This document shows positions 22,517 through 36,210 of a DNA stretch of 64,000 nt, piece by piece. The notes under the pieces were generated by a model. The model worked only from the letters and a program-made list of their open reading frames with translations, made no database searches and was not told the DNA's origin. The stretch covers positions 2,604,001-2,668,000 of the forward strand of contig NZ_CP043473.1 in assembly GCF_008275125.1 (NCBI RefSeq), given 5' to 3'. The position numbers and the translations under genes were made by a program. Source of the stretch: Chromobacterium paludis. GTDB lineage: Bacteria > Pseudomonadota > Gammaproteobacteria > Burkholderiales > Chromobacteriaceae. Numbering within the stretch: the stretch's first letter is position 1; every line of letters begins with the position of its first letter.

Positions 22517-22591
22517 GGCGGCCATTGTAGCCCGCCTTGCCGGCGCGACGTCAATGCCAGCGGCAAATAAAATCTATGGTCAGCCTGACCT

Positions 22592-22824
22592 TTGCAAGAA
22601 CAGCGTGCTGATGAATCATGACGGGGTAGGCTTGCTCTAATCTATCCGGATTCTTGATGGGCACAATAGAGCCCGATCCATGATGTGAGCCGCTCCTGCA
22701 AGTCCCTAAAAAGCCCTCAGTCTGTCATGACTGTTTTTACGATCGGGGTATCCTGCAGGCCGTGGGCCGGTTGTCGTCATCAGTATCTGTCTTGGCAAAA
22801 GCAGGCTTCTACTCGCCGCCGGGT
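22592..22824 (-). ncRNA. Predicted IS guide RNA region, copy 1
   Basis: The noncoding tail between the transposase stop and the right inverted repeat corresponds to 35247-35479 of copy 2, and I see no difference between them. It contains GGGCTTTTT (complement of 22708-22716), matching the terminator target, and ATAGATTA (complement of 22638-22645), matching the predicted circle junction. IS1111-group elements are known to encode their guide RNA (seekRNA/bridge RNA) downstream of the transposase. RNA ends are not determinable by eye. Confidence 0.55.
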
Positions 22825-23871
22825 TTACCCGGCGGTTTGCATTTCAGTCAGTGCGCGGGCCTGGGGACGGTACTCGCCGCCTTTGGCGAGTAGCGCCCAC
22901 ACGACCCGTGCCAGTTTGTTGGCCAGTGCGCAGGCCACGATATTCGAGTGGCGACGCTGCATCAGCGCCACCGTCCACGCTGCCATCGCACTCTTCCAGC
23001 GCGGCGCGTTCTGCATGATCACCCGTGCGCATTGCACCAGCAGGCGACGCAGGCTCTTGTCACCGCGTTTGCTGATGCCCAGCAGCTTGGACTTCCCGCC
23101 TGTCGAGTATTGTCGCGGGACCAGACCCAGCGATGCCGCAAAGTCACGGGCATTGCCATAGCCCTTGGCATTGCCGGCGTCCGCCGACAACTGGCTGGCG
23201 GTGATCGCACCGATGCCGGGAATGGTCATCAACCGCCGGGCGACATCGTCCTGTCGGGCTTCTGTGGCAATCTCGTGATCCAGCTCGTCGATCTCGGTCT
23301 TGAGCAGACGGTAGTGATCCAGCTGGCGTTGCAGGATCTGCCGGGCCTTGACGGGCAAGCCGTTGGTCTCGTCCATCAGCAGCATCGGCAGCTGCGTGAT
23401 CCCCCGTACCCCGACAGGAAGCGCGATGCCGAACTCCAGCAGCAGCGCATGGATCTGGTTGTTGGTCTGTATTCGTTCGGCAATGCGAGATTCCCGCAGG
23501 CGATGCAGTGCCGACAAGGCTTGCTGTTCGGCACTCTTGGCGGCAACGTAGCGCATGGTCGGGCGCGTAGCCGCCTCGCAGATGGCCTGGGCATCGATGA
23601 AATCGTTCTTGTTGCCGAAGACAAACGGGCGGATGTACTGCGGTGCGATCAGTTGTACGGTATGACCGAAGCCCGTCAGCTTGCGTGCCAGCCAGTGCGC
23701 GCCGCAGTAGGCCTCCATCACGATGCGGCAGGGAGGCTGTTTCGCGAGAAATTCGATGAGACTGTTGCGATTGAACTGCTTCTTGAGGACCGGGTTGCCG
23801 CGCGGGTCGTGCCCGATCAGATGAAAGCTGTGCTTGCCGATATCCAGACCGATGAGTGTGACGGTTGCCAT
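22825..23871 (-). CDS. IS110-family transposase, copy 1
   Basis: The 348-residue transposase has the RuvC-like DEDD catalytic domain of IS110 (first Asp in GLDIGKHSF, Glu in CRIVMEAYCG, Asp pair around NKNDFIDAQAI). It also has the C-terminal Tnp_20 domain beginning MTIPGIGAITASQLSADAG, with the Ser-bearing segment RQYSTGGKSKLLG. IS110 enzymes excise a circular intermediate and reinsert it guided by an element-encoded RNA. The start MATVTLIGL (23869-23871) has GGGGAG upstream; earlier ATGs lie in the left-end hairpin. The frame is intact. It differs from copy 2 at one visible residue (Tyr versus Cys in MEAYCG). Confidence 0.95.
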   Translation of the reverse strand: MATVTLIGLDIGKHSFHLIGHDPRGNPVLKKQFNRNSLIEFLAKQPPCRIVMEAYCGAHWLARKLTGFGHTVQLIAPQYIRPFVFGNKNDFIDAQAICEAATRPTMRYVAAKSAEQQALSALHRLRESRIAERIQTNNQIHALLLEFGIALPVGVRGITQLPMLLMDETNGLPVKARQILQRQLDHYRLLKTEIDELDHEIATEARQDDVARRLMTIPGIGAITASQLSADAGNAKGYGNARDFAASLGLVPRQYSTGGKSKLLGISKRGDKSLRRLLVQCARVIMQNAPRWKSAMAAWTVALMQRRHSNIVACALANKLARVVWALLAKGGEYRPQARALTEMQTAG

Positions 23872-23951
23872 GATGCTCTCCCCGAAGAAGAAATGCCTCA
23901 GCAGGTTTGACGCCTGCTGAGGCATTTAGGTCAGGCTGACCATCACATTAA

Positions 23952-23972
23952 GCCCCGGCGCGATGCCGAGGC
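23952..23972 (-). terminator. cysK terminator stem, split from its T-tract by the IS
   Basis: On the minus strand GCCTCGGC-ATCGC-GCCGGGGC forms an 8-bp stem (one G-T pair) 22 bp after the cysK stop. The T-tract TTTTATTTG that would follow it is now at 22572 downward, on the other side of IS copy 1. Confidence 0.8.
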
Positions 23973-23994
23973 CCTTGCCCATGCGCGAGGCGGA

Positions 23995-24927
23995 CTACGC
24001 CAAATGCTCGAACAACACCGTGGACAGATAGCGTTCGCCGAAGGACGGAATCACCACCACGATCAGCTTGCCGGCGTTTTCCGGCCGCTTGGCCAGTTGC
24101 AGCGCCGACCACACCGCCGCGCCGGACGAAATGCCCACCAGGATGCCCTCCTTGGTGGCGACTTCGCGCGCGGTTCGCAGCGCGTCTTCGTTCTGGACGC
24201 GGATGATTTCGTCGTAAACATCGGTATTCAGAATGGCCGGCACGAAACCGGCGCCTATGCCCTGGATCGGGTGCGGCCCCTTGGCGCCGCCGGACAACAC
24301 CGGCGAGGCATCCGGCTCCACCGCCACGATCTGCACGCCGGGCTTGCGCGCCTTCAACACTTCGCCCACCCCGGTGATGGTGCCGCCGGTGCCCACGCCG
24401 GCCACGAAGATGTCCACCTTGCCGTCGGTATCGTTCCACACCTCTTCCGCCGTGGTATGGCGGTGGATGGCCGGGTTGGCAGGGTTCTCGAACTGCTGCG
24501 GCATGAAATAGGTGTCCGGGAACTCGTCCACCAGCGCCTTGGCCTTGGCGATGGCGCCGCCCATGCCGTCCGCTCCCGGCGTCAGGATCAACTCCGCGCC
24601 ATAGGCCTTCAGCAACTGGCGGCGCTCCTTGCTCATGGTTTCCGGCATGGTGATCACCAGCTTGTAGCCGCGCGCCGCGCACACCATGGCCAGGCCGATG
24701 CCGGTGTTGCCCGAGGTCGGCTCCACGATGACGGTATCGGGCTGGATCTTGCCGGCCTGTTCCGCCGCGTCCAGCATCGCCACCGCGATGCGGTCCTTGA
24801 CGCTGTGCGCCGGATTGAAGAACTCCAGCTTGGCCGCCACCGTGGCGACGCAGCCTTCGGTGACCCGGTTGAGCTTGACCAGCGGCGTGTTGCCGATCAG
24901 GTCGGTGATGGTGTTGGCAATGCGCAT
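23995..24927 (-). CDS. cysK: Cysteine synthase A
   Basis: CysK is the PLP enzyme that makes cysteine from O-acetylserine and sulfide. The 310-residue product has the PLP lysine in NPAHSVKDR (Lys44), the substrate loop TSGNTG, the glycine-rich phosphate site GTGGTITG and the C-terminal ISSGAA motif. I chose [10 protein letters not shown] (24925-24927), which has GAGGAA about 9 bases upstream; two in-frame ATGs slightly upstream are possible. It uses the sulfide produced by the cysH-cysI genes at 36.4-39.3 kb. Its terminator is split by IS copy 1, so read-through could enter the transposase gene. Confidence 0.95.
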
Positions 24928-25093
24928 CGTCTTATTCCTCATCAACCATGAATATCAATGTCGATATTCCTCGACATCATAATTAATGACAAGCAATCAG
25001 CCTAATATCCTTTGCTTATATCCTGTAAACCAAATGCCGGCCGCTCCCTCTAAGCCGCTTGCTTATAGTCAAAACCAAACAGACAAGATTCCC

Positions 25094-25963
25094 ATGCCTA
25101 CCCAGGAAAATCTGATCCCGCTGTCCGGCTGGCGCCGCAAGCTCTACATCGTCATCTACGAGGCCGACACCCGGGCCGGCCGCATCTTCGACATGGCGCT
25201 GATCGCGGCCATTCTCGCATCCGTCGCCTGCGTGATGCTGGAAAGCGTGTCGTCGATCAAGCAGCGCTACGGCACGCTGCTGACCATCTTGGACTGGACC
25301 TTCACCCTGCTGTTCACCATCGAGTACGCCCTGCGGCTGATCTGCGTGCACAAGCCCATGCGCTATGTGAAGAGCTTCTTCGGCGTGATCGACTTGCTGT
25401 CCATCCTGCCGCTATACCTGGGGCTGTTCATCCCGGAAAGCCGCTTCCTGGCCGACATCCGCATCCTGCGCCTGCTCCGGATGTTCCGCATCCTCAAGCT
25501 GAGCCGCCACCTGGGCGAGGCCGCGCAGCTGCGGCGCGCCTTGCTGGCCAGCCGCCGCAAGATCACCGTGTTCCTGGTCACCGTCATCTTGCTGGTCATC
25601 GTGCTGGGCACGCTGATGTACGTGATAGAAGGACCGGAAGACGGCTTCACCAGCATTCCCGTCAGCATCTACTGGGCCATCGTCACGCTGACCACGGTCG
25701 GCTTCGGCGACATCACGCCGAAAACGCCGCTGGGCCAGGCCGTGGCCAGCCTGGTGATGATCACCGGCTACGGCATCATCGCCGTGCCCACCGGCATTGT
25801 CAGCGCCGAGATCGCGCGCAGCGCGCCCGATCCCACGCCTGACAACCGCTCCGCCACCCGGCTATGCCCGCATTGTTTCAGCGAGGGGCATGACTGGGAC
25901 GCTCGCTTTTGCAAACATTGCGGCGGCCAACTGCCGCGTCCGGCCAAGGACGAAGTCAGCTGA
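25094..25963 (+). CDS. Voltage-gated potassium channel-like protein with C-terminal zinc ribbon
   Basis: The 289-residue protein has a six-helix voltage-gated ion channel fold: S1-S3 at about residues 31-110, an arginine-rich S4 ([18 protein letters not shown], about 121-138), and a pore loop with selectivity filter TVGFGD (201-206). S6 follows. The C-terminus carries two CxxC pairs (CPHC at 258-261 and CKHC at 273-276), a zinc-ribbon-like module unusual as a channel tail. The start is uncertain: ATGs at 24986 and 25034 are in frame but would add a non-conserved leader. It overlaps the convergent macro-domain gene by 8 bp. Confidence 0.85.
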
Positions 25964-26462
25964 GCGCGCGCCGATAGCCCTCCAAAACGCCCGCGTCGTA
26001 GGCCACCAGCCAGATTTCGCACAACGCGTGAGGCTGCGCGGCCAGCCAGCCCCGCACCGTCGCCACCGCCAGCCGACACGCGTCGTCCAGCGGATAGCCA
26101 TACGCGCCGCAACTGATGGCCGGAAAGGCGATGCTGGCCAAGCCGTGCCGCTCGGCCAAGTCCAGGCTGTTGCGATAGCACGCCGCCAGCAGCGCCGGTT
26201 CGCCATGGCCGCCGCCCTGCCAGACCGGCCCCACGGTATGGATCACATATGGCGCCGACAGATTGAAACCTGGCGTCAGCCTGGCCTCCCCCGTCGGACA
26301 GCCCCCCAGGCGCCGGCAAGCCGCCAGCAGCTCCGGTCCCGCCGCCCGGTGAATGGCGCCGTCCACGCCGCCGCCGCCCAGCAGACTGTTGTTGGCGGCG
26401 TTGACGATGGCCTCCACCTCCATCCGGGTAATGTCCGCTTGCACGCAGCGCAAGTCCGCCAT
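25956..26462 (-). CDS. Macro-domain protein, probable O-acetyl-ADP-ribose deacetylase
   Basis: Macro domains bind ADP-ribose, and the bacterial YmdB/AF1521-like group hydrolyses O-acetyl-ADP-ribose or removes ADP-ribose from acidic residues. The 168-residue protein has the ADP-ribose motifs [19 protein letters not shown] and [17 protein letters not shown]. The phosphate loop is in [17 protein letters not shown]. The start [12 protein letters not shown] (26460-26462) has a strong AAAGGAGG site. Its 3' end overlaps the channel gene by 8 bp on the opposite strand. No ADP-ribosyltransferase or toxin partner is adjacent, so a housekeeping role is more likely than antitoxin. Confidence 0.92.
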
Positions 26463-26878
26463 GCCGGCCTCCTTTCGTTTCGGGTGCAATGCGAACCGAT
26501 CAAGCGGCTCGCTGTTGTATCATATTGCCTGGCGGATGGCTCCGGCGCAGCCGCGCGCGCAACCGCTTGATCGGCAAGCAAATAGCAAGCGCTTACTCTG
26601 CGGTCAAAATACCAAACAAATAAAATCCATCCCAGCAAGCGCAGTCCCTCGCCGCAAAGCCCGCCGTCAGGCCCTGCCGCCCCCGCTGTGGATAACTTTG
26701 TTGATAAGCCGGTGAACAGGCGGCCAAAAGGCCCGCCCCATAAACGTTCCAGCCCCAAAGCCACGCTGGGATGAATAATTGCAAGCCTATGATTTAATTG
26801 GAAATTCAATTCAATAGCAAACGCTCCTGTGCGCCTCCCGCCAGAGCGGATACCGAATAATTACTCCAGCCTACGATT
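26463..26878. other. 416-bp intergenic region between macro-domain gene and xseA
   Basis: No gene is supported here. The region is more AT-rich than its surroundings toward its xseA end and must hold divergent promoters. TGTGGATAA at 26687-26695 is a perfect match to the 9-bp DnaA box, and TGTTGATAA follows at 26700-26708. Open frames across it lack codon structure and are shadows. Confidence 0.5.
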
Positions 26879-28252
26879 GTGGATCACTTGACAAGACAGA
26901 ATTTTCTTGATCGCAGCCAAGATGTGATCAGCGTCTCCTCTCTCAACCGCATGGCGCGCGACCTGCTGGAAGCCGGCATCCCGCCATTGTGGATAGGCGG
27001 AGAAATTTCCAACCTGACGCTGGCGGCTTCCGGCCACGCTTACTTCTCGCTGAAAGACGGCGGCGCCCAGGTGCGCTGCGTAATGTTCCGCCACAAGCTC
27101 GCCCTGTTGCCGTTCCGACCGCAGGAAGGCATGCAGGTGGAGCTGCGCGGCCAAGTGACCCTGTACGAAGCGCGCGGCGACTTTCAGATCACGGTTGGCG
27201 AAATGCGCGCCGCCGGCCTGGGCCGCCTGTACGAGGCGTTTGAACGGCTGAAGGCCAAGCTGCAGGCCGAGGGATTGTTTGAGGCGTCACGCAAACGCGA
27301 ACTGCCCGCGCACCCCGCCGCCATCGGCATCGTCACCTCGCCCGCCGCCGCCGCATTGCGCGACGTGGTCAGCACGCTGCGACGCCGCATGCCCGGTATT
27401 CCACTGATCCTCTACCCCGCCCAGGTGCAGGGCGAAGGCTCGGCGCAACAGATCGCCAACGCCATCCGCCTGGCCGGCGCGCGCAAGGAGGTGGATGTGC
27501 TGATCGTCTGCCGCGGCGGCGGCAGCATTGAAGACCTGTGGTCGTTCAACGAGGAAATCGTCGCCCGCGCCGTGGCCGCCAGCCCCATTCCCACCGTCAG
27601 CGGCGTCGGCCACGAAACCGACTTCACCATCTGCGACTTCGTCGCCGATCGGCGCGCGCCGACCCCCACCGCCGCCGCGGAACTGGTGTCGCCCAACCGC
27701 GAGCACCTAGCCATCCAGCTGGAGCAAACCCGCCGCGCGCTGGAGCGGGCGCTGAACCGGCTGTTGACCGACAAGGCGCAGCAGCTGGACTTCCTGGGCC
27801 GCCGGCTCACCCATCCCGGGGCCAGGCTGCAGACGCAAAGCGAGCGGCTGGACGCCCTGGCGCGAACGCTGCGCCAACGCGTGCATGCCGTTTTTGAACA
27901 AGGGCGCTGGCGGCTGCAACTGGCCGGCAGCCGCGTCGCGCGCCACCGGCCCGACCTATCCGCGCGCGCCGCGCAGCTGCAACAGCAGCAATCCCGCCTG
28001 CAGCGCGCCCGCGACCGCCTGCTGGAGCGGCGCGCGCAGCAGCTGGCGCAACTGGCCGCCACGCTGACAGCGCTCAATCCGGAGGCGGTGCTGGCGCGCG
28101 GCTACGCCATCGTGCAAAAACAGAACGGCCAGGCAGTGAAAAGCCCGGCCGAACTGTTGAATCACGAGAAAGTCATGCTGCGGCTGGCGGAAGGCAGCAC
28201 CGAGGCGCGCATCGAACACCCCCAGGGCGTGCAGCCGGAACTGCCGTTTTAG
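26879..28252 (+). CDS. xseA: Exodeoxyribonuclease VII large subunit
   Basis: XseA with XseB forms exonuclease VII, which digests single-stranded DNA from both ends. The 457-residue product has an N-terminal OB fold (LWIGGEISNLTLAASGHAYF, VMFRHKL). The catalytic core includes AAALRDVVSTLRRR, CRGGGSIEDLWSFNEE and SGVGHETDFTICDFVADRR. A long coiled-coil and a C-terminal ARGYAIV motif end the protein. It starts at GTG (26879) without a clear ribosome-binding site; GTG at 26924 is an alternative. xseB is not in the window. It is transcribed alone. Confidence 0.94.
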   Translation: MDHLTRQNFLDRSQDVISVSSLNRMARDLLEAGIPPLWIGGEISNLTLAASGHAYFSLKDGGAQVRCVMFRHKLALLPFRPQEGMQVELRGQVTLYEARGDFQITVGEMRAAGLGRLYEAFERLKAKLQAEGLFEASRKRELPAHPAAIGIVTSPAAAALRDVVSTLRRRMPGIPLILYPAQVQGEGSAQQIANAIRLAGARKEVDVLIVCRGGGSIEDLWSFNEEIVARAVAASPIPTVSGVGHETDFTICDFVADRRAPTPTAAAELVSPNREHLAIQLEQTRRALERALNRLLTDKAQQLDFLGRRLTHPGARLQTQSERLDALARTLRQRVHAVFEQGRWRLQLAGSRVARHRPDLSARAAQLQQQQSRLQRARDRLLERRAQQLAQLAATLTALNPEAVLARGYAIVQKQNGQAVKSPAELLNHEKVMLRLAEGSTEARIEHPQGVQPELPF

Positions 28253-28301
28253 CAGTGCCGGCGAGCAGCCTCATCCAGGATGACCGATCATGGCTCTCCA
28301 G

Positions 28302-28544
28302 TTAATTGTGACTAGCGCTACTGGCGCTGCCACGCCGGATCTGATCAAACAACTGTTGCTGGGCAGAGTCGCTTAATGTCTCAGTGTTAACGCTAGTGTG
28401 GCGAGGTATATTGCTTCCGGTAATGTAAGTGGCATCAGAGTACCGTTCCTCAGCCGCAGCACTCTTGTCCGCACCGGCCGGGGAAGCGCACGCGGTCAGC
28501 CAAGCCGTGGCGGCCAATAACATGATAGGTTTGACGAGATTCAT
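28302..28544 (-). CDS. Small hypothetical lipoprotein
   Basis: This 80-residue protein starts MNLVKPIMLLAATAWLTACASP, a lipoprotein signal with lipobox LTAC and Cys19. The mature part is short and polar and contains YITGSNIPRHTS, a TGSxIPR-type motif I recall from small uncharacterised proteobacterial proteins. It ends in a Ser/Ala/His-rich tail. No function is known to me. It converges with xseA, with 49 bp between the stops and no strong hairpin, and it is followed upstream by an ordinary 180-bp intergenic region. Confidence 0.7.
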   Translation of the reverse strand: MNLVKPIMLLAATAWLTACASPAGADKSAAAEERYSDATYITGSNIPRHTSVNTETLSDSAQQQLFDQIRRGSASSASHN

Positions 28545-28670
28545 GGTTTCATCCGCGGAAAACAGGTTGGAAACAAGCGCCGGCGCATTTTATTGTCATA
28601 ATTCGTATTTCATACTAATCAACTGCGGCAAGCATGTAAATCTCAATCTGAAACCACTTCGATGCCAATA

Positions 28671-28701
28671 ACAAAACAGACCTGCCACAGGGCAGGTCTG
28701 T
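28671..28701 (-). terminator. Terminator of the ribF-ileS-lspA-ispH run
   Basis: ACAGACCTGCC/GGCAGGTCTGT (28676-28701) is followed on the minus strand by TTTGTTATTG. It is 22 bp after the ispH stop. Confidence 0.85.
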
Positions 28702-28722
28702 CAGTTGGAAGGCCAAACTCCC

Positions 28723-29655
28723 TTAGGCCTGCCGCAAGGCCGGCGGCAAGGCGAACACCGTGTTTTCCTCGACGCCAGGCAGCTCGCTCACCTGGCTGAC
28801 ATCGAAAGTCTTGATGCGGTCTATCACCGCCTGCACCAGCACTTCCGGCGCGCTGGCGCCGGCCGTCACGCCCACCTTGCTCTTGCCGGCGAACCAGGCA
28901 GGCTCCAGCAGATCGGCGTTGTCCACCATATAGGCATCCACCCCCTTCAGCGCCGCCACTTCGCGCAGGCGATTGGAGTTGGAACTGTTGGGCGAGCCCA
29001 CCACCACCACCATATCGCATTGCTCGGCCAGCAGCTTCACCGCGTCCTGGCGGTTTTGCGTGGCATAACAGATGTCGTCCTTCTTGGGGCTATGGATATT
29101 GGGAAAGCGCGCCTTGAGCGCGGTGATGATGTCGCGTGTCTCGTCCACCGACAGCGTAGTCTGGCTGACGTAGGACAGCTGATCCGGGTTGGCGACCTGC
29201 AGCCTGGCCACGTCGGCTTCGTTTTCCACCAGATACATGCCGCCCTCGGCCTGTCCCATTGTGCCTTCCACCTCCGGGTGGCCGGCATGGCCGATCATGA
29301 TGATCTCCATGCCAGCCTGACGCATGCGCTTGACCTCGACGTGCACCTTGGTCACCAGCGGACAGGTCGCGTCAAACACATTGAGCCCCAGCGCCTCGGC
29401 CTCGGCGCGAACCGACAGCGGCACGCCATGCGCGGAGTAGACCAGCGTGCTGCCGGCCGGCACATCCTTCAACTCCTCGATGAACACCGCGCCCTTGGCG
29501 CGCAAGTTGTCCACCACAAAACGGTTGTGCACCACCTCGTGACGCACGTAGATGGGCGCGCCGTACAGCTCGATGGCGCGCTCGACGATGGCGATGGCTC
29601 GGTCCACCCCGGCGCAGAAGCCGCGCGGGTTGGCGAGCATGATGGTCTTCGTCAT
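28723..29655 (-). CDS. ispH: 4-hydroxy-3-methylbut-2-enyl diphosphate reductase IspH
   Basis: IspH is the last MEP-pathway enzyme, a [4Fe-4S] protein that reduces HMBPP to IPP and DMAPP. The 310-residue product has cluster cysteines in [12 protein letters not shown] and [11 protein letters not shown]. The third expected cysteine region is around [10 protein letters not shown]. Substrate motifs [12 protein letters not shown] and [11 protein letters not shown] are present, as is the catalytic glutamate in [14 protein letters not shown]. It is last in the ribF-ileS-lspA-ispH order, a common arrangement in proteobacteria, and is followed by a terminator. IspG is also in this window. Confidence 0.96.
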
Positions 29656-29746
29656 CCGTATTTCCTTAATCAGGCCGGGGTTTTGCCCGGAAAATGCGCG
29701 AATGGCCCGCGCCGCGGGCCATCGTTACGATCAAGCGCCGCCTCGC

Positions 29747-30247
29747 TCAACGCGACGGCTTCTTGAAGCCGTCCAGCACCATCAGCGCCGCGCCGACGCA
29801 GATGAAGGAATCCGCCAGGTTGAACGCTGGGTAGTACCACTGGTGGTAGTAGTGCACCAATATGAAGTCGATCACATGGCCATAGGCCAAGCGGTCTATC
29901 ACATTGCCCAGCGCGCCGCCGATGATGAAGGCGGCGGCCAGATTCATCAGCACGGAAAAGCGTCCCTTGACGATGCTCCACCCCAGCCAGCCGGATACGG
30001 CGAAGGCCAGCACGGTGAACAGATACTTCTGCCAGCCGCCCGCGTCATGCAGAAAGCTGAACGCGGCGCCCGGATTGTAAATCAGGGTAAAGCTGAAGAA
30101 ACCGTCTATCACTGGCCGCGCTTCCCCATATTGGTAGCTGCCGTTGAAATACAGCTTGCTGAGCTGATCCAGCACGATGACCAGCGCCGCCAGCACAAAC
30201 CACTTGGACCATCGGCGCTCGCCGGACATAGTCATTGCAGAATCCAT
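29747..30247 (-). CDS. lspA: Lipoprotein signal peptidase (SPase II)
   Basis: LspA cleaves prolipoproteins before the lipidated cysteine in the inner membrane. The 166-residue product has four hydrophobic segments. The catalytic aspartates lie in GNVIDRLAYGHVIDF and NLADSFICVG, and the conserved YNPGAAFSFL loop is present. Many lipoproteins in the window are its expected substrates. The start is given as MDSAMTMSGE (30245-30247), though the ATG five codons later is equally possible. A GC hairpin (about 29704-29721) lies between lspA and ispH and may modulate distal expression. Confidence 0.95.
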   Translation of the reverse strand: MDSAMTMSGERRWSKWFVLAALVIVLDQLSKLYFNGSYQYGEARPVIDGFFSFTLIYNPGAAFSFLHDAGGWQKYLFTVLAFAVSGWLGWSIVKGRFSVLMNLAAAFIIGGALGNVIDRLAYGHVIDFILVHYYHQWYYPAFNLADSFICVGAALMVLDGFKKPSR

Positions 30248-30296
30248 CTATCGGTTTCCAATTGCAGTTGGGGCCGCCGCAGCGGCCCCGAATCGA

Positions 30297-33074
30297 TCAG
30301 GCGTGCAGGCGCTGCTCGCCCTGGCCATCCAGGTTGTCCACGCAGCGGCCGCACACCGCGCCGTGGCCGGCATGGCTGCCCACGTCGGCACGATAATGCC
30401 AGCAGCGGTCGCACTTTTCATGCGTCGACGGCGTCACGTGGATAGCCAGCTCGGCAGCCTCGCGCACCGTCGCCTTGGACACGATCAGCACGAACTTCAG
30501 TTCCTCGCCCAAGCTGCGCAGGACAGGCGCCAGATCGGCCGGGGCGGCGATGTCCACCTCCGCTTGCAGGGACGAGCCCAGCTTATCCGCGCTGCGCAGT
30601 TCCTCGATCTGCTTGTTGACGGCGGCGCGCAGCTCGCGGATGGCCAGCCACTTGGCGGACAACGCGGACTCGCGCTCAAGCGCCTGCGCCGGGAACTCAT
30701 GCCAGATGTGATACAGCGTGGACTCTTCCTCGCTGTCCACCAGCACGTTCCACGCCTCGTCGGCGGTGAAGCACAGGATGGGCGCCACCATCAGCAACAG
30801 GCTGCGCGTGATGTGGTAGAGCGCAGTCTGCGCGCTGCGGCGCGCGTGACTGTCGGCCTGGGTGGTGTACAGGCGGTCCTTGATCACGTCCAGATAGAAG
30901 GCGCCCAGGTCTTCCGAGCAATAGCCGACCACTTCCTGCACCACATGGTGGAAGGCGTAGCGCGAGTACAGCTCGCCCACCACCTTCTCCTGCACCTCGC
31001 GCGCGCGCAGCAGCGCGTACTGGTCCAGCTCCACCATGTCGGCCAGCGGCACGGTGTTTTCCAGCGGATCGAAATCCGACAGGTTGGCCAGCAGGAAGCG
31101 GATGGTGTTGCGCAGGCGGCGGTAGCTTTCGGTGGTGCGCTTCAGGATTTCCTGCGACAGCGACATGTCGCCGGAGTAGTCCGCGCTGGCCACCCACAGC
31201 CGCAGGATGTCCGCGCCCAGCGTGCCGCAGATCTCTTCCGGCGCGATGCCGTTGCCCTTGGACTTGGACATCTTGTAGCCCTTGTCGTCCACGGTGAAGC
31301 CGTGGGTCAGGAGCTGCTTGTACGGCGCGCGGCCGATGGTGGCGCAGCCGGTCTTCAGCGACGACTGGAACCAGCCGCGGTGCTGGTCGGAGCCTTCCAG
31401 GTACAGGTCGGCCGGCCAGGCCAGCTCCGGGCGCTGCTTCAGCACCGCGAAGTGAGTGGCACCGGAGTCGAACCACACGTCCAGCGTGTCGGTCAGCTTG
31501 CGGTATTGCTCGGCCTCGTCGCCCAGCAATTCCTTGGCGTCCAGACTGAACCAGGCTTCGATGCCCTGCTGCTCGATGCGCAGCGCCACTTCCTCCAGCA
31601 GCTGGGCGGAACGCGGATGCAGCTCGCCCGACTCCTTGTGAATGAAGAAGGTCATCGGCACGCCCCAGTTACGCTGGCGCGACACGCACCAGTCGGGGCT
31701 GTTCTTGATCATCGCGTCCAGACGCGCGCGGCCCCAGGCCGGGAAGAATTCGGTGGCGTCGACGGCGCGCTGGCTGATCTCGCGCAACGTCTCGCCGCCA
31801 TTGGCCTGACGGTCCATGCTGATGAACCATTGCGGCGTGGCGCGGAAGATGATCGGCGTCTTGTGGCGCCAGCAATGCGGATAGCTATGTTCCAGCTTGG
31901 CCTTGTGCACCAGCGTGCCGCGCGACTCCAGCGTCTCGATCACGCGCGGGTTGGCATCCCATACCAGCATGCCGGCGAACAGCTCGGTGGTGCTCTTGTA
32001 GCGGCCGTCGTCCGCCACCGGATTGGCGATGGGCAGCTTGTACTGCAGGCCGGCCTGGAAGTCTTCCAAACCATGGGCCGGCGCGGTGTGTACCAAGCCG
32101 GTGCCGGCGTCGGTGGTGACGTGGTCGCCCAGAATCACCGGCACCTGGCGGTCATAGAACGGGTGCTGCAGCGCGATCAGCTCCAGCGCCTGGCCCTTGG
32201 CTTCGCCCAACACGCGGTACTCGTCCACGCCATAGCGCTTCATCGCCGACTCGACCAGATCCTTGCCCAGGATCAGCTTGCCCTTGGGGGTGTCCACCAG
32301 CTGGTAATCCAGGCTGGCGCCGGCGGCGACGGCCTGGTTGGCCGGCAGCGTCCACGGTGTGGTGGTCCAGATCACGGCCATCGCGCCGTTGGCATCGGCG
32401 TCGAAGGCGGCGGAAGCCTTGTCGGCATCGACCACCTTGAAGCCGACGTCGATCGCCGGCGACACCTTGTCTTCGTATTCCACTTCGGCTTCCGCCAGCG
32501 AGGAACCGCACTCGATGCACCAGTGCACTGGCTTCTCGCCCTTGCTCAGGTAGCCGTTTTCATGGATCTTGCCGAGGGTGCGCACGATGTCGGCTTCGGT
32601 CTTGAAATCCATGGTCAGGTACGGGTTGTCCCAATCGCCCAGCACGCCCAGGCGGATGAAGCCCTTCTTCTGACGCGCCACCTGCTCCTTGGCGTACTCG
32701 CGGCACAGCTCGCGGAACTTGGCGGCCGGGATGTCCTTGCCGTGCAGCTTTTCCACCATCAGCTCGATAGGCAAGCCGTGGCAGTCCCAGCCCGGAACAT
32801 AGGGCGCGTCGAAGCCGGCCAGGGTCTTGGAACGGACGATGATGTCCTTCAGCACCTTGTTGACCGCGTGGCCCAGGTGGATGTCGTTGTTGGCGTACGG
32901 CGGGCCGTCATGCAGGATGAACTTGGGACGGCCGGCGGACAGCTTGCGCAGCTTTTCATAGCGCTTCTCTTCCTGCCAGCGCTTGACCCAGGCCGGTTCG
33001 CGTTTGGCCAGATCCCCGCGCATGGCGAAGGGTGTATCCAGCAGGTTTACGGTTTTACGATAATCGATGCTCAT
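30297..33074 (-). CDS. ileS: Isoleucyl-tRNA synthetase
   Basis: IleS is the class I synthetase that charges tRNA-Ile and edits misactivated valine. The 925-residue product has the HIGH-type motif [11 protein letters not shown] with [11 protein letters not shown]. The editing domain contains [11 protein letters not shown], and the KMSKS loop is [11 protein letters not shown]. The C-terminus carries a zinc-binding pattern [10 protein letters not shown] and CGRCVDNL. The length is typical of bacterial eubacterial-type IleRS (mupirocin-sensitive class by architecture). Its ATG overlaps the ribF stop by 4 bp, and lspA begins 50 bp downstream. Confidence 0.97.
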
Positions 33075-34006
33075 GCCTGCTCTCGCTGCAAACTTGTCAA
33101 ATAGGTCTTGGCACTGGCCGCGTCGCGCTCTATCTGCGCCACCAGTGTCGCCAAATCATCATAGCGCGCTTCATCGCGCAGCTTCTTCAGGAATCGTACG
33201 GTCAGACGCTTGCCGTAGAGGTCGCCGGCAAAATCGAACAGGTGCACTTCCAGCTTGTAGTCAGGCGTGTCGCTGACCGTGGGGTTCAGCCCCAGGCTGG
33301 CCACGCCGCCCAAGCGGCCGAACGGCGTATCCGCCTCCACCACAAACACCCCCTGCAATGCCGGCTTCAGGTGCGGCAGATGGATGTTGGCGGTGGGAAA
33401 GCCTATGGTTCTGCCCAGCTTCTTGCCATGCATCACCTTGCCTGATATCCGGTACGCCTCGCCCAGCAAGCCGTTGGCCGAATCGAGATCGCCAGCGGCC
33501 AGCCGCTCCCGAATCAGCGTGCTGGAGGCACGTTCTCCCTGCACCAGCACGGAAGGCATGGCCTCCGTGGCGAAATGGGGGCAGGAAGCCAGGAGGTCGA
33601 AATCTCCTTTGCGTCCGGCGCCAAACTGAAAATCGTCGCCGATCAGCAAATAACGGGTCTGCAATTCTTGCACCAGCACGCGATCGACAAAATCCGACGC
33701 CGTCATGCTGGCGAAGCTGTGATTGAAACGGTAGACGAAAACATAATCCACCAGTCCCAGCTCTCGCAACAAGCTAAACTTGTCGCGCAGCGTCGACAAC
33801 CGAGCGGGCGGGTTTACCCGGCTGAAGAATTCTCGCGGGTGCGGCTCGAACGTCAGCAGCGCGGTAGGCAGCTCGCGCGCCTGCGCCTCCAGGCGCAGCC
33901 TGTGCAGCATGCGTCTATGCCCTTGGTGCACACCATCGAAATTGCCTATGGTCAGCGCGCAGCCCGGCAGGGCGAAACGACGCGGATCCCCCAGAAATAC
34001 CTGCAT
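33071..34006 (-). CDS. ribF: Bifunctional riboflavin kinase/FMN adenylyltransferase
   Basis: RibF makes FMN from riboflavin and then FAD. The 311-residue product has an N-terminal nucleotidyltransferase domain ([42 protein letters not shown]). The C-terminal flavokinase domain follows ([50 protein letters not shown]). It is first in the ribF-ileS-lspA-ispH run and overlaps ileS by ATGA. FAD and FMN feed flavoproteins such as the class 1 dihydroorotate dehydrogenase here. Its promoter must lie in 34007-34093, just beyond the relocated ompA terminator. Confidence 0.96.
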
Positions 34007-34093
34007 TTGCGGTCTTTGTACGCATCCTGAAACCGTCGATTGTAGCCGCCCGCGGTCAATAGCGTCCAGCCATCATCCATATGCGGGACAAAC

Positions 34094-34116
34094 AAAAAGC
34101 CCCGCCGGGGCGGGGC
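34094..34116. terminator. ompA terminator stem, split by IS copy 2
   Basis: AAAAAGCCCCG-CCGGGG-CGGGGC is a GC stem with T5 on the minus side. Its other flank (T6 on plus, A6 on minus) is now at 35499-35504 on the far side of the IS. Before insertion it would have lain directly after ompA, 16 bp past the stop. Confidence 0.85.
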
Positions 34117-34140
34117 TTAATGTGATGGTCAGCCTGACCT

Positions 34141-34180
34141 AAATGCCTCAGCAGGCGTCAAACCTGCTGAGGCATTTTTT
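34141..34180 (+). terminator. Terminator-like hairpin in the IS left end
   Basis: A perfect 15-bp stem AAATGCCTCAGCAGG pairs with 34163-34177, with loop CGTCAAA, followed by T-rich TTTCTTCTT. It lies between the left inverted repeat and the transposase start and looks like a rho-independent terminator that blocks outside transcription. Copy 1 has the same stem with a shorter T-run. Confidence 0.65.
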
Positions 34181-34199
34181 CTTCTTCGGGGAGAGCATC

Positions 34200-35246
34200 A
34201 TGGCAACCGTCACACTCATCGGTCTGGATATCGGCAAGCACAGCTTTCATCTGATTGGGCACGACCCGCGCGGCAACCCGGTCCTCAAGAAGCAGTTCAA
34301 TCGCAACAGTCTCATCGAATTTCTCGCGAAACAGCCTCCCTGCCGCATCGTGATGGAGGCCTGCTGCGGCGCGCACTGGCTGGCACGCAAGCTGACGGGC
34401 TTCGGTCATACCGTACAACTGATCGCACCGCAGTACATCCGCCCGTTTGTCTTCGGCAACAAGAACGATTTCATCGATGCCCAGGCCATCTGCGAGGCGG
34501 CTACGCGCCCGACCATGCGCTACGTTGCCGCCAAGAGTGCCGAACAGCAAGCCTTGTCGGCACTGCATCGCCTGCGGGAATCTCGCATTGCCGAACGAAT
34601 ACAGACCAACAACCAGATCCATGCGCTGCTGCTGGAGTTCGGTATCGCGCTTCCTGTCGGGGTACGGGGGATCACGCAGCTGCCGATGCTGCTGATGGAC
34701 GAGACCAACGGCTTGCCCGTCAAGGCCCGGCAGATCCTGCAACGCCAGCTGGATCACTACCGTCTGCTCAAGACCGAGATCGACGAGCTGGATCACGAGA
34801 TTGCCACAGAAGCCCGACAGGACGATGTCGCCCGGCGGTTGATGACCATTCCCGGCATCGGTGCGATCACCGCCAGCCAGTTGTCGGCGGACGCCGGCAA
34901 TGCCAAGGGCTATGGCAATGCCCGTGACTTTGCGGCATCGCTGGGTCTGGTCCCGCGACAATACTCGACAGGCGGGAAGTCCAAGCTGCTGGGCATCAGC
35001 AAACGCGGTGACAAGAGCCTGCGTCGCCTGCTGGTGCAATGCGCACGGGTGATCATGCAGAACGCGCCGCGCTGGAAGAGTGCGATGGCAGCGTGGACGG
35101 TGGCGCTGATGCAGCGTCGCCACTCGAATATCGTGGCCTGCGCACTGGCCAACAAACTGGCACGGGTCGTGTGGGCGCTACTCGCCAAAGGCGGCGAGTA
35201 CCGTCCCCAGGCCCGCGCACTGACTGAAATGCAAACCGCCGGGTAA
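34200..35246 (+). CDS. IS110-family transposase, copy 2
   Basis: The 348-residue protein has the DEDD domain (GLDIGKHSF, CRIVMEACCG, NKNDFIDAQAI) and the C-terminal Tnp_20 domain (IPGIGAITASQLSADAG, RQYSTGGKSKLLG). The frame is complete, so the element may be active. The start MATVTLIGL at 34200 has GGGGAG 6 bases upstream. The stop codon lies in the loop of a CCGCCGGG/CCCGGCGG hairpin (35236-35255), which may mark the 5' side of the guide RNA region. Cys replaces the Tyr found in copy 1 after MEA, and which residue is ancestral is unknown. Confidence 0.95.
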   Translation: MATVTLIGLDIGKHSFHLIGHDPRGNPVLKKQFNRNSLIEFLAKQPPCRIVMEACCGAHWLARKLTGFGHTVQLIAPQYIRPFVFGNKNDFIDAQAICEAATRPTMRYVAAKSAEQQALSALHRLRESRIAERIQTNNQIHALLLEFGIALPVGVRGITQLPMLLMDETNGLPVKARQILQRQLDHYRLLKTEIDELDHEIATEARQDDVARRLMTIPGIGAITASQLSADAGNAKGYGNARDFAASLGLVPRQYSTGGKSKLLGISKRGDKSLRRLLVQCARVIMQNAPRWKSAMAAWTVALMQRRHSNIVACALANKLARVVWALLAKGGEYRPQARALTEMQTAG

Positions 35247-35479
35247 ACCCGGCGGCGAGTAGAAGCCTGCTTTTGCCAAGACAGATACTGATGACGACAA
35301 CCGGCCCACGGCCTGCAGGATACCCCGATCGTAAAAACAGTCATGACAGACTGAGGGCTTTTTAGGGACTTGCAGGAGCGGCTCACATCATGGATCGGGC
35401 TCTATTGTGCCCATCAAGAATCCGGATAGATTAGAGCAAGCCTACCCCGTCATGATTCATCAGCACGCTGTTCTTGCAA
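35247..35479 (+). ncRNA. Predicted IS guide RNA (seekRNA/bridge RNA) region, copy 2
   Basis: This noncoding tail holds two plausible guide loops. CCTGCA (35312-35317) can pair with TGCAGG (35371-35376), enclosing a loop with GGGCTTTTT (35355-35363), which matches the terminator target GGGGC-TTTTTT. GCTCTA (35399-35404) can pair with TAGAGC (35432-35437), enclosing or abutting ATAGATTA (35426-35433), which matches the predicted circle junction CATAGA-T-TAATG. This is the expected place for an IS1111-group guide RNA. RNA ends and folding are inferred. Confidence 0.6.
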
Positions 35480-35520
35480 AGGTCAGGCTGACCATAGATT
35501 TTTTCATGGTGGCGGCTGGC

Positions 35521-36210
35521 TTACTTGGCCGGCTGTTCAACCATGCTTTCCTTCACGGCGTCGATCACGACTTCCACGCGACGGTCAGACTCGATGCAAG
35601 CCTTGATTTCGGCATTTTGCTTCTTGTTCTTCGCGTATTTCGGGAACTTGGCCTTGCACTCTTCCGTCATCTTGGCTTCGGCCTTGCCCTTACCGACGGA
35701 AGTTACCTTCTCAGCCGGCACGCCTTCGTTCACGAAGTAGGCCTTGACCGCGTCGGCGCGCTTCTGGGACAGAGCGTTGTTCAGCTTGTCGGAACCCATG
35801 AAGTCGGTGTAGCCGTCGATTTCCACGCCGGTCAGGTGGCCTTGGCCAGCGTGAGCCTTCAGCTTGGCAACCAGCGGATCCAGTTCGTTCTTGGCGTCTG
35901 CGCGCAGGGTGGACTTGTTGAAGTCGAACAGCACCTTGGCGGACAGGGTCACTTTTTCCTTCATCTGAACCATGGTCGGCTTCGGAGCCACCGGAGCGGC
36001 GACAACCGGCTTGGCCGCTTCGCGGTCGCCACATTCAACCAGGCCGTTGGCAGCCTTGTCGAAGGTGGAGGTGCGCCAGCATTCGCCGTAGTTGTTGCGG
36101 ACTACGGAGTCGGTGGATTGGTCAACGGCATAACCCGGTTTGGCAGCAAAAGCGCTAGCAGAAACCAACAGGGCGGCAACCAGTGCGCTCAGTTTCAGCT
36201 GTTTAGTCAT
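35521..36210 (-). CDS. ompA: OmpA-family outer membrane protein (RmpM-like)
   Basis: The 229-residue product has a signal peptide cleaved after SASAFA. A short N-terminal region with SVVRNNYGECWRTS follows, then a Pro/Ala hinge (about 68-82) and a C-terminal OmpA peptidoglycan-binding domain. That domain shows LFDFNKSTLR, GYTDFMGSDKLNNALSQKRA and a cysteine pair (EECKAKFP, IKACIESDRRVEV). It resembles neisserial RmpM (class 4 protein), which lacks a large N-terminal barrel and tethers porins to peptidoglycan. A strong promoter lies upstream. Its terminator stem is now about 1.4 kb away because IS copy 2 was inserted. Confidence 0.9.
   Translation of the reverse strand: MTKQLKLSALVAALLVSASAFAAKPGYAVDQSTDSVVRNNYGECWRTSTFDKAANGLVECGDREAAKPVVAAPVAPKPTMVQMKEKVTLSAKVLFDFNKSTLRADAKNELDPLVAKLKAHAGQGHLTGVEIDGYTDFMGSDKLNNALSQKRADAVKAYFVNEGVPAEKVTSVGKGKAEAKMTEECKAKFPKYAKNKKQNAEIKACIESDRRVEVVIDAVKESMVEQPAK

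Follow-up and report, generated by a model that had tools for sequence, protein, structure and literature searches.

RNA-guided targeting, the anatomy of IS1111 elements and the natural reprogramming of their guides have already been published for the IS110 family of insertion sequences (IS) (PMC11187229, PMC11208160; these papers, like those cited below, are quoted for selected portions of their text). In other IS1111 elements than the one described here, the RNA co-purifies with the transposase and is needed for movement (PMC11187229). The ends of IS1111 elements follow a simple rule, lying 7 bp outside the left sub-terminal repeat and 3 bp outside the right one, the repeats themselves measuring about 11-13 bp (PMC11187229). 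Here we analyse a window of 64,000 nucleotides from Chromobacterium paludis (contig NZ_CP043473.1, positions 2,604,001 to 2,668,000; GC content 63%), which holds two copies of an IS1111-type element, present in this genome as 8 full copies of 1,378-1,384 bp and 1 left-end remnant. Very probably, this element is an IS1111-type IS that is guided by its RNA to intrinsic transcription terminators. Its location in terminators is real and general within this genome, and is explained by a guide that spells the foot of the terminator stem and the T-tract. Within the literature searched, the new part would be terminators as a class of target, the RNA-guided targeting of IS1111 and IS110 being known.

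Results

A preliminary description of the two window copies had placed each of them inside a terminator, between the stem and the T-tract. Both stems and both T-tracts are as first described, and the flanks rejoin into terminators. The insertion proved to be systematic, in one orientation and between the 3' arm of the hairpin and the T-tract: 9/9 left flanks form a short-loop GC hairpin of 7-8 uninterrupted pairs, ending in GGGC and followed by a T and the left end of the element, and 8/8 right flanks start with TTTT. The 7 copies other than those of the window all show the stem, plus the T-run where the right end remains. The stem sequences differ among the nine left flanks, which have only the foot in common, as had been proposed from two. 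The junction had first been written GGGGC|TTTT. The stem foot is indeed parted from the T-tract, but with the copy boundaries set by the published 7/3-bp end rule (PMC11187229) the target is best read from the sequence as GGGCT|TTTT, and the junction is ambiguous by one T because the left end itself begins with T. Apart from this single T, the flanks of the 8 full copies rejoin without target duplication, and their orientation is single, as in IS1111.

Coincidence between two copies, or the spread of one segment by homologous duplication, can hardly be entertained in view of these flanks. Duplication is ruled out by the nine different left flanks, and chance was dropped as 9/9 copies or remnants lie at the same point of a hairpin. 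The pattern is moreover repeated in 12 other loci (L020, L042, L021, L027, L033, L073, L074, L127, L121, L122, L124 and L134), and empty sites exist in relatives. In 18 further genomes from the genus these were sought by a scripted test, which asked for a stem of at least 6 pairs followed by 4 or more T in a stretch of 5, and the reconstructed terminators were largely confirmed by it. At the place of copy 2, 17/18 genomes carry a terminator-like hairpin, with the exact target word GGGCTTTT in 13 and a shuffled rate of 2.6%; the remaining genome (L089) has the hairpin with three T's only. At the place of copy 1, the hairpin is found in 13/18 genomes, one of which (L115) is doubtful, with the exact GGGCTTTT in 5 and a shuffled rate of 4.8%; the same test gave no terminator in the other 5/18.

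What could direct the element to these sites is found in the noncoding region downstream of the transposase gene (tnp), where two guides spell GGGCT (left) and TTTTTA (right). They come in the order ATCGTAAAAA, small hairpin, GGGCTTTTT, which is the order published for IS1111, with the complement of the top strand first (PMC11187229). In the minimum-energy fold both guides lie in an internal loop, bounded on one side by an outer stem and on the other by an inner hairpin. The structure, drawn by hand from an alignment of 28 relatives, pairs in 96.7% of the cells of this alignment, against 22-41% for slid structures, and 73 cells are changed on both sides, against 21.6 in shuffled alignments. 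By sequence and covariation, this is a candidate structured RNA whose guides address the two strands of the target, as expected of a seekRNA (or bridge RNA).

Guides and targets agree across relatives, whose ends, flanks and guides were taken at 97% to 42% identity. The left guide (5 nt) matches the flank of its own element with a mean of 4.67/5, all 24 elements being at 4 or 5, whereas mismatched pairs average 1.89. For the right guide (8 nt), scored as the best of several registers with equal freedom given to mismatched pairs, the average is 7.04/8 in 27 elements, against 4.90. Among 100,000 permutations, none attained the left or the right mean (p<=1e-5 each), the elements being related to varying degrees and the pairs not fully independent. 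Guide and target both read GGGTT in L042, AACCT in L033, GGGTC in L073, CGGGT in L121, GCGTT in L134 and TGTGT in L133, the last with TTATGACTA on both at the right side; L021 and L027 have the guide GGGCG with the targets GGCCG and TGGCG. Immediately right of the element, all 33 flanks listed begin with TT, regardless of what the guide specifies further on; this points to a fixed junction core.

The sample behind these figures was delimited as follows. Left out of the guide test were L136 and L138 (right end misplaced by the motif) and, as second copies or near-identical elements, L050, L027, L067, L070, L127 and L020; for the left guide only, L120 (degraded end), L060 (3-nt flank) and L137 (no left end found) were set aside. 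L034, L126, L130, L131, L139, L046, L047, L048, L052 and L053 gave no right end by motif and never entered. The comparison also omits a group at about 48% identity with other ends (L046-L048, L052, L053, L061-L064, L066, L068, L069, L071 and L076) and L036 (37%, too distant), and L037-L039 are fragments. A scan of genome contigs gave 7 loci, of which L033 and L035 were used for guides; L034 contributed its left flank and was placed in the tree. Searches of the family, the order and the class matched 9/61, 9/399 and 2/369 genomes at the thresholds used, the genome of the window included each time. A search for extra copies in the records of L073, L074, L117, L120-L122, L124 and L127 found one place in 7/8 records at E<=1e-85. 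In the record of L120 (NC_015727.1), tblastn gives 14 IS110-type places in one plasmid, one of them at E<=1e-85; that of L073 (NZ_AP026896.1) is labelled a plasmid, yet measures 4.94 Mb and is chromosome-sized. In one draft genome (G009), contig ends fall where a related element has its right end (L028, L029 and L031), each with a different T-rich flank behind it; these are probably further insertions of the same kind.

Terminators are a recurring target of these relatives, not an obligatory one. With cut-offs set after seeing the sequences (a hairpin of at least 6 pairs and a T-tract of at least 4), 12 distinct elements with a right flank stand at terminators, namely L001, L020, L042, L021, L033, L073, L074, L117, L121, L122, L124 and L134; L027 and L127, two second copies, show the same pattern. 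By shuffling, L117 is weak (p 0.22), and L121, L122, L124 and L134 are moderate (0.06-0.09). Another 13 elements fall short of these cut-offs, among them L072 and L065, with a hairpin followed by T3, and L132, with a palindrome and T3. Elements of the subgroup whose guides spell other words lie at those words without a hairpin above the cut-off, as seen at L075, L119, L123, L125, L128, L129, L133 and L135, at L067/L070 and L035, and, for the left side only, at L118. On the transposase tree, in which 9 forks stay open and the outgroup branch is long, the terminator label (L034 added by hand) needs 7 changes, in whichever direction. These changes, read from the sequences, would be consistent with repeated retuning of the guide. 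An AT-richer left-flank hairpin (ATCCGAAAC...GTTTCGGAT) was seen in L038, a fragment of a 74% relative in a metagenome-assembled genome of an uncultured Aeromonas; its guide is off the contig and it was not counted.

The word GGGCTTTT occurs 217 times in the genome (110+107), and the word read backwards 50 times (31+19). By position, 5 of the 100 words listed fall inside IS copies, in the guide, and each of the 8 full copies should contribute one word in this way. We sampled 58 words, that is all those listed up to position 1,186,321 minus one inside an IS copy, and found a stem of at least 7 pairs at 29/58, against 5.8% in shuffles. On this count about one GGGCTTTT in two lies at a hairpin and, extrapolated to the whole genome, of the order of 100 such terminators would be present among about 8.5 million strand positions.

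The element also carries a terminator-like hairpin of its own, between the left end and tnp, with 15 pairs and a folding energy of -26.4 kcal/mol (z -8.2). Its sequence varies between lineages while the pairing is kept. Comparable internal hairpins (at least 8 pairs) with a T-run were found in 12/12 elements at terminators, against 3/13 others (Fisher p 1e-4 with post hoc cut-offs); this count drops the second copies L027, L127, L067 and L070, and the element of L060/L067/L070 is therefore absent from it, as is L034, which had been given both labels by hand for the tree. The tract after the hairpin (34175-34190 in the window, and likewise in L005-L008) differs among copies, reading T6(CTT)2, TTT(CTT)3, TTT(CTT)4 or TTT(CTT)2, which accounts for the copy lengths of 1378, 1381 and 1384. 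These three-base steps leave a long upstream reading frame open.

A number of observations weigh against the guidance of this element to terminators by its RNA. One concerns the hairpin: 9/9 insertions at hairpins exceed the expectation from the word only (29/58; 0.5^9 = 0.002), so that selection or a structural preference must act. The simplest and likely cause is the loss of insertions hitting genes, as hairpin-free words would sit in coding DNA, where insertions are presumably selected out. It is also possible, although we think it rather unlikely, that the guide inserts at any GGGCTTTT and that the DNA hairpin, or transcription at terminators, aids strand opening, so that hairpin sites are preferred several-fold. 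Such a preference would fit both the 9/9 excess and the short loops of the hairpins, but the loss of cells with broken genes would give an equal excess. Much less probable is that the transposase recognises the hairpin or a cruciform itself, the GGGC and T-tract sequence merely accompanying terminators. The excess over 29/58 could be accounted for in this manner, as could stems that are unlike in sequence bar the foot; yet the first eight of the elements named above at other words have no hairpin above the cut-off at a site spelled by their guide, and the guide-target match is far above permutation. Inverted repeats of varied sequence are likewise the insertion sites of IS1630 of Mycoplasma fermentans, an IS30-type element that is not known to use a guide RNA. 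In the preliminary description it had been suggested that the present element recognises the 3' sides of terminators: the terminator sites are indeed systematic, but the data do not call for recognition of the structure, and a short word spelled by the two guides explains the target.

The other points of this kind bear on the RNA, on single matches and on the internal hairpin. The fold of the single RNA sequence is ordinary (z -1.4), 17/200 shuffles folding equally well, and pairs showing any double change number 9 against 7.4, a value reached by 51/500 shuffles. L118 has a right flank that misfits its own guide (4/8), as does the left flank of L120 (1/5), an element with a degraded left end that stood outside the permutation. 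At most copies of the window genome it is chiefly the T's of the right guide (TTTTTACGAT) that find their match, L001 scoring 6/8, from which we take it that the T-tract carries the match and the remainder is tolerated. L037, a fragment of a 77% relative whose guide is off the contig and which was not counted, shows no evident left-end hairpin by eye. As for the internal hairpin, once relatedness is corrected for, its comparison does not reach significance (p 0.0625, with 4-5 pairs in one direction and 0 in the opposite one), and its link to terminator targeting is then suggestive only. The T-run that follows it is T6 in 5/9 copies and TTT(CTT) in 4/9, window copy 1 included, and the hairpin is present in three elements that are not at terminators by the cut-offs (L072, L118 and L125).

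The coordinates of the element and its sites in the window are given in Table 1. The transposase frame contains the Pfam domains DEDD_Tnp_IS110 and Transposase_20 (E 3.6e-18 and 8.2e-24), the family being assigned by domains and not by catalytic residues, and by sequence it matches the solved IS621 and ISCro4 transposases. All 8 full copies have the 7/3 bp extensions and the sub-terminal repeats of IS1111, 15 bp long here, and the noncoding region is longer downstream of tnp (35247-35498) than upstream (82 bp). Copies 1 and 2 form inverted arms with 1,325 nt identical. Joining of the ends in a circle would create promoter-like hexamers 17 apart (at least 4/6 each) in 25/27 elements, exactly TTGCAA and GATAAT in 19. 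The remnant consists of 168 bp of left end at G000:C1:1664297-1664464, which a hairpin ending in GGGGCT still adjoins. In an Rfam search of 34000-35700, 9 matches at E<=1 were obtained, none reaching the gathering score and none an intron; the best, NsiR1 (E 0.0015), falls on the internal hairpin.

By domain search, copy 2 adjoins an OmpA-family gene and copy 1 a PALP-domain (cysK-like) gene. Copy 2 lies on the OmpA side of a hairpin that is preceded by an A-run and followed by a T-run; the tnp of this copy opposes the OmpA gene. In a crude test of open reading frames, 7 copies (L002-L008) have a frame on the tnp strand ending 27-110 nt ahead of the left junction. The test also gives one for copy 2 (87 nt), where the gene on that side, by domain an FAD synthetase/riboflavin kinase, is on the opposite strand. 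Since tnp of copy 2 runs against the OmpA gene, co-direction with the upstream gene is no rule.

Table 1. Positions in the window of the two IS copies, their parts and their target sites
Feature	Position	Strand	Remarks
IS copy 2	34118..35498	+	1,381 bp; left end TAATGTG, right end AGA
IS copy 1	22573..23950	-	1,378 bp
Transposase of copy 2	34200..35246	+	348 aa; DEDD_Tnp_IS110 + Transposase_20
Transposase of copy 1	22825..23871	-	
Left sub-terminal inverted repeat ATGGTCAGCCTGACC	34125..34139	+	15 bp, perfect
Right sub-terminal inverted repeat GGTCAGGCTGACCAT	35481..35495	+	exact inverse of left repeat
Target hairpin GCCCCG-CCGGGG-CGGGGC and first T, left flank of copy 2	34099..34117	+	
T6, target T-tract, right flank of copy 2	35499..35504	+	
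Target hairpin GCCTCGGC-ATCGC-GCCGGGGC and first T, left flank of copy 1	23951..23972	-	
TTTT, target T-tract, right flank of copy 1	22569..22572	-	
Terminator-like hairpin of the element and T-run, between left end and tnp	34141..34180	+	T6; copy 1 has TTT-CTT-CTT
Candidate seekRNA (bridge RNA) target-binding core, copy 2	35302..35383	+	
Guide A ATCGTAAAAA	35328..35337	+	complement of right-half top strand (TTTTTACGAT)
Guide B GGGCTTTTT	35355..35363	+	identical to left-half top strand
Candidate seekRNA core, copy 1	22688..22769	-	guide A 22734-22743, guide B 22708-22716; within stretch identical to copy 2

Discussion

The insertion site and its orientation, the guide-target match, the RNA fold, the empty sites and the internal hairpin were all computed here. 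From related elements (PMC11187229, PMC11208160), one may expect RNA production, RNA binding, circle formation and catalysis to take place as follows. The noncoding region after tnp would be transcribed into the seekRNA, whose internal loop, closed by the outer stem and the inner hairpin, would expose the two guides. On the right of the insertion point, in the T-tract, one of them would complement the top strand; on the left, the other would equal the top strand, reading GGGCT, the foot of the GC-rich stem. The complex of transposase and RNA would then insert the circular element at GGGCT|TTTT in a single orientation. Insertions in hairpin sites would spare genes, leaving surviving copies that are all in terminators. 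Each insertion separates the hairpin from its T-tract, but the element has a strong hairpin of its own, some 23 bp in from the left end, by which termination may be restored or the transposase gene protected against read-through. This internal hairpin would then act as a terminator, either for the benefit of the host gene or to silence tnp.

A wider proposal, which we advance tentatively and as plausible rather than probable, is that an IS1111 subgroup has repeatedly specialised on terminators, using them as a safe harbour programmed by RNA. In this view the right guide would stay fixed on the T-tract, the left guide would be retuned to different stem feet (GGGCT, GGGTT, GGGTC, AACCT, CGGGT and GCGTT), and the broken terminator would be replaced by the one in the left end, the insertion being near neutral for the host and the transposase silent. 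With terminators targeted by the RNA, the range of sites that programmable IS1111 elements use in nature would gain a class defined by function, the ends of transcription units. The 24-27 natural guide-target pairs also make the pairing rules readable (about 5 nt on the left and about 8 nt on the right), and whether such elements bring a replacement terminator becomes testable.

Terminators as a target of IS110/IS1111 or RNA-guided elements were not found among the matches listed in the open literature searched, the scope of which lay outside subscription papers, supplements, ISfinder and figure logos. The word terminator is absent from the main text of PMC11208160, and its three uses in PMC11187229 refer to cloning constructs. 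Nothing on IS110 elements targeting terminators stands in the portions considered of a BMC Genomics survey of IS (PMC9208149), of PMC10888264 or of PMC5395568.

The closest described elements are the IS1111 members with a seekRNA, ISEc11, ISPa11, ISKpn4 and ISPst6 (PMC11187229). They likewise have a DEDD/Transposase_20 protein, sub-terminal repeats with 7/3 bp extensions, a noncoding region downstream of tnp, the same guide order and natural replacement of guides between relatives. Their targets, in the text of that paper, are REP, attC, Tn21-family ends and a short linear word, whereas the target here is a terminator foot with its T-tract, and the present element differs from them, as published, in the terminator-like hairpin of its left end. 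IS621 and other IS110 elements with a bridge RNA (PMC11208160) also possess an RNA loop with guides to both target strands. In the IS110 group, however, the RNA is located upstream of its gene, with the guides in reverse order (PMC11187229), and IS621, unlike the present element, targets REP. Insertion in an extragenic palindrome is likewise seen in the REP-targeting IS110-family elements ISPa11, ISPpu9 and ISPpu10, but REP is one repeated sequence family (PMC1525189), whereas here unrelated stems share a foot and a T-run.

In function, the element resembles the group IIC (bacterial class C) introns, the known mobile elements that are placed directly after rho-independent terminators and so spare genes (PMC8919778, citing Robart et al. 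2007). These are retroelements with a ribozyme and a reverse transcriptase, an unrelated machinery, and the likeness implies no membership: Pfam gives transposase domains only on the transposase frame of our element, and the Rfam search described above found no intron in it. By aiming at a conserved regulatory signal, one short guide would reach many sites, a route already known for group IIC introns (PMC8919778).

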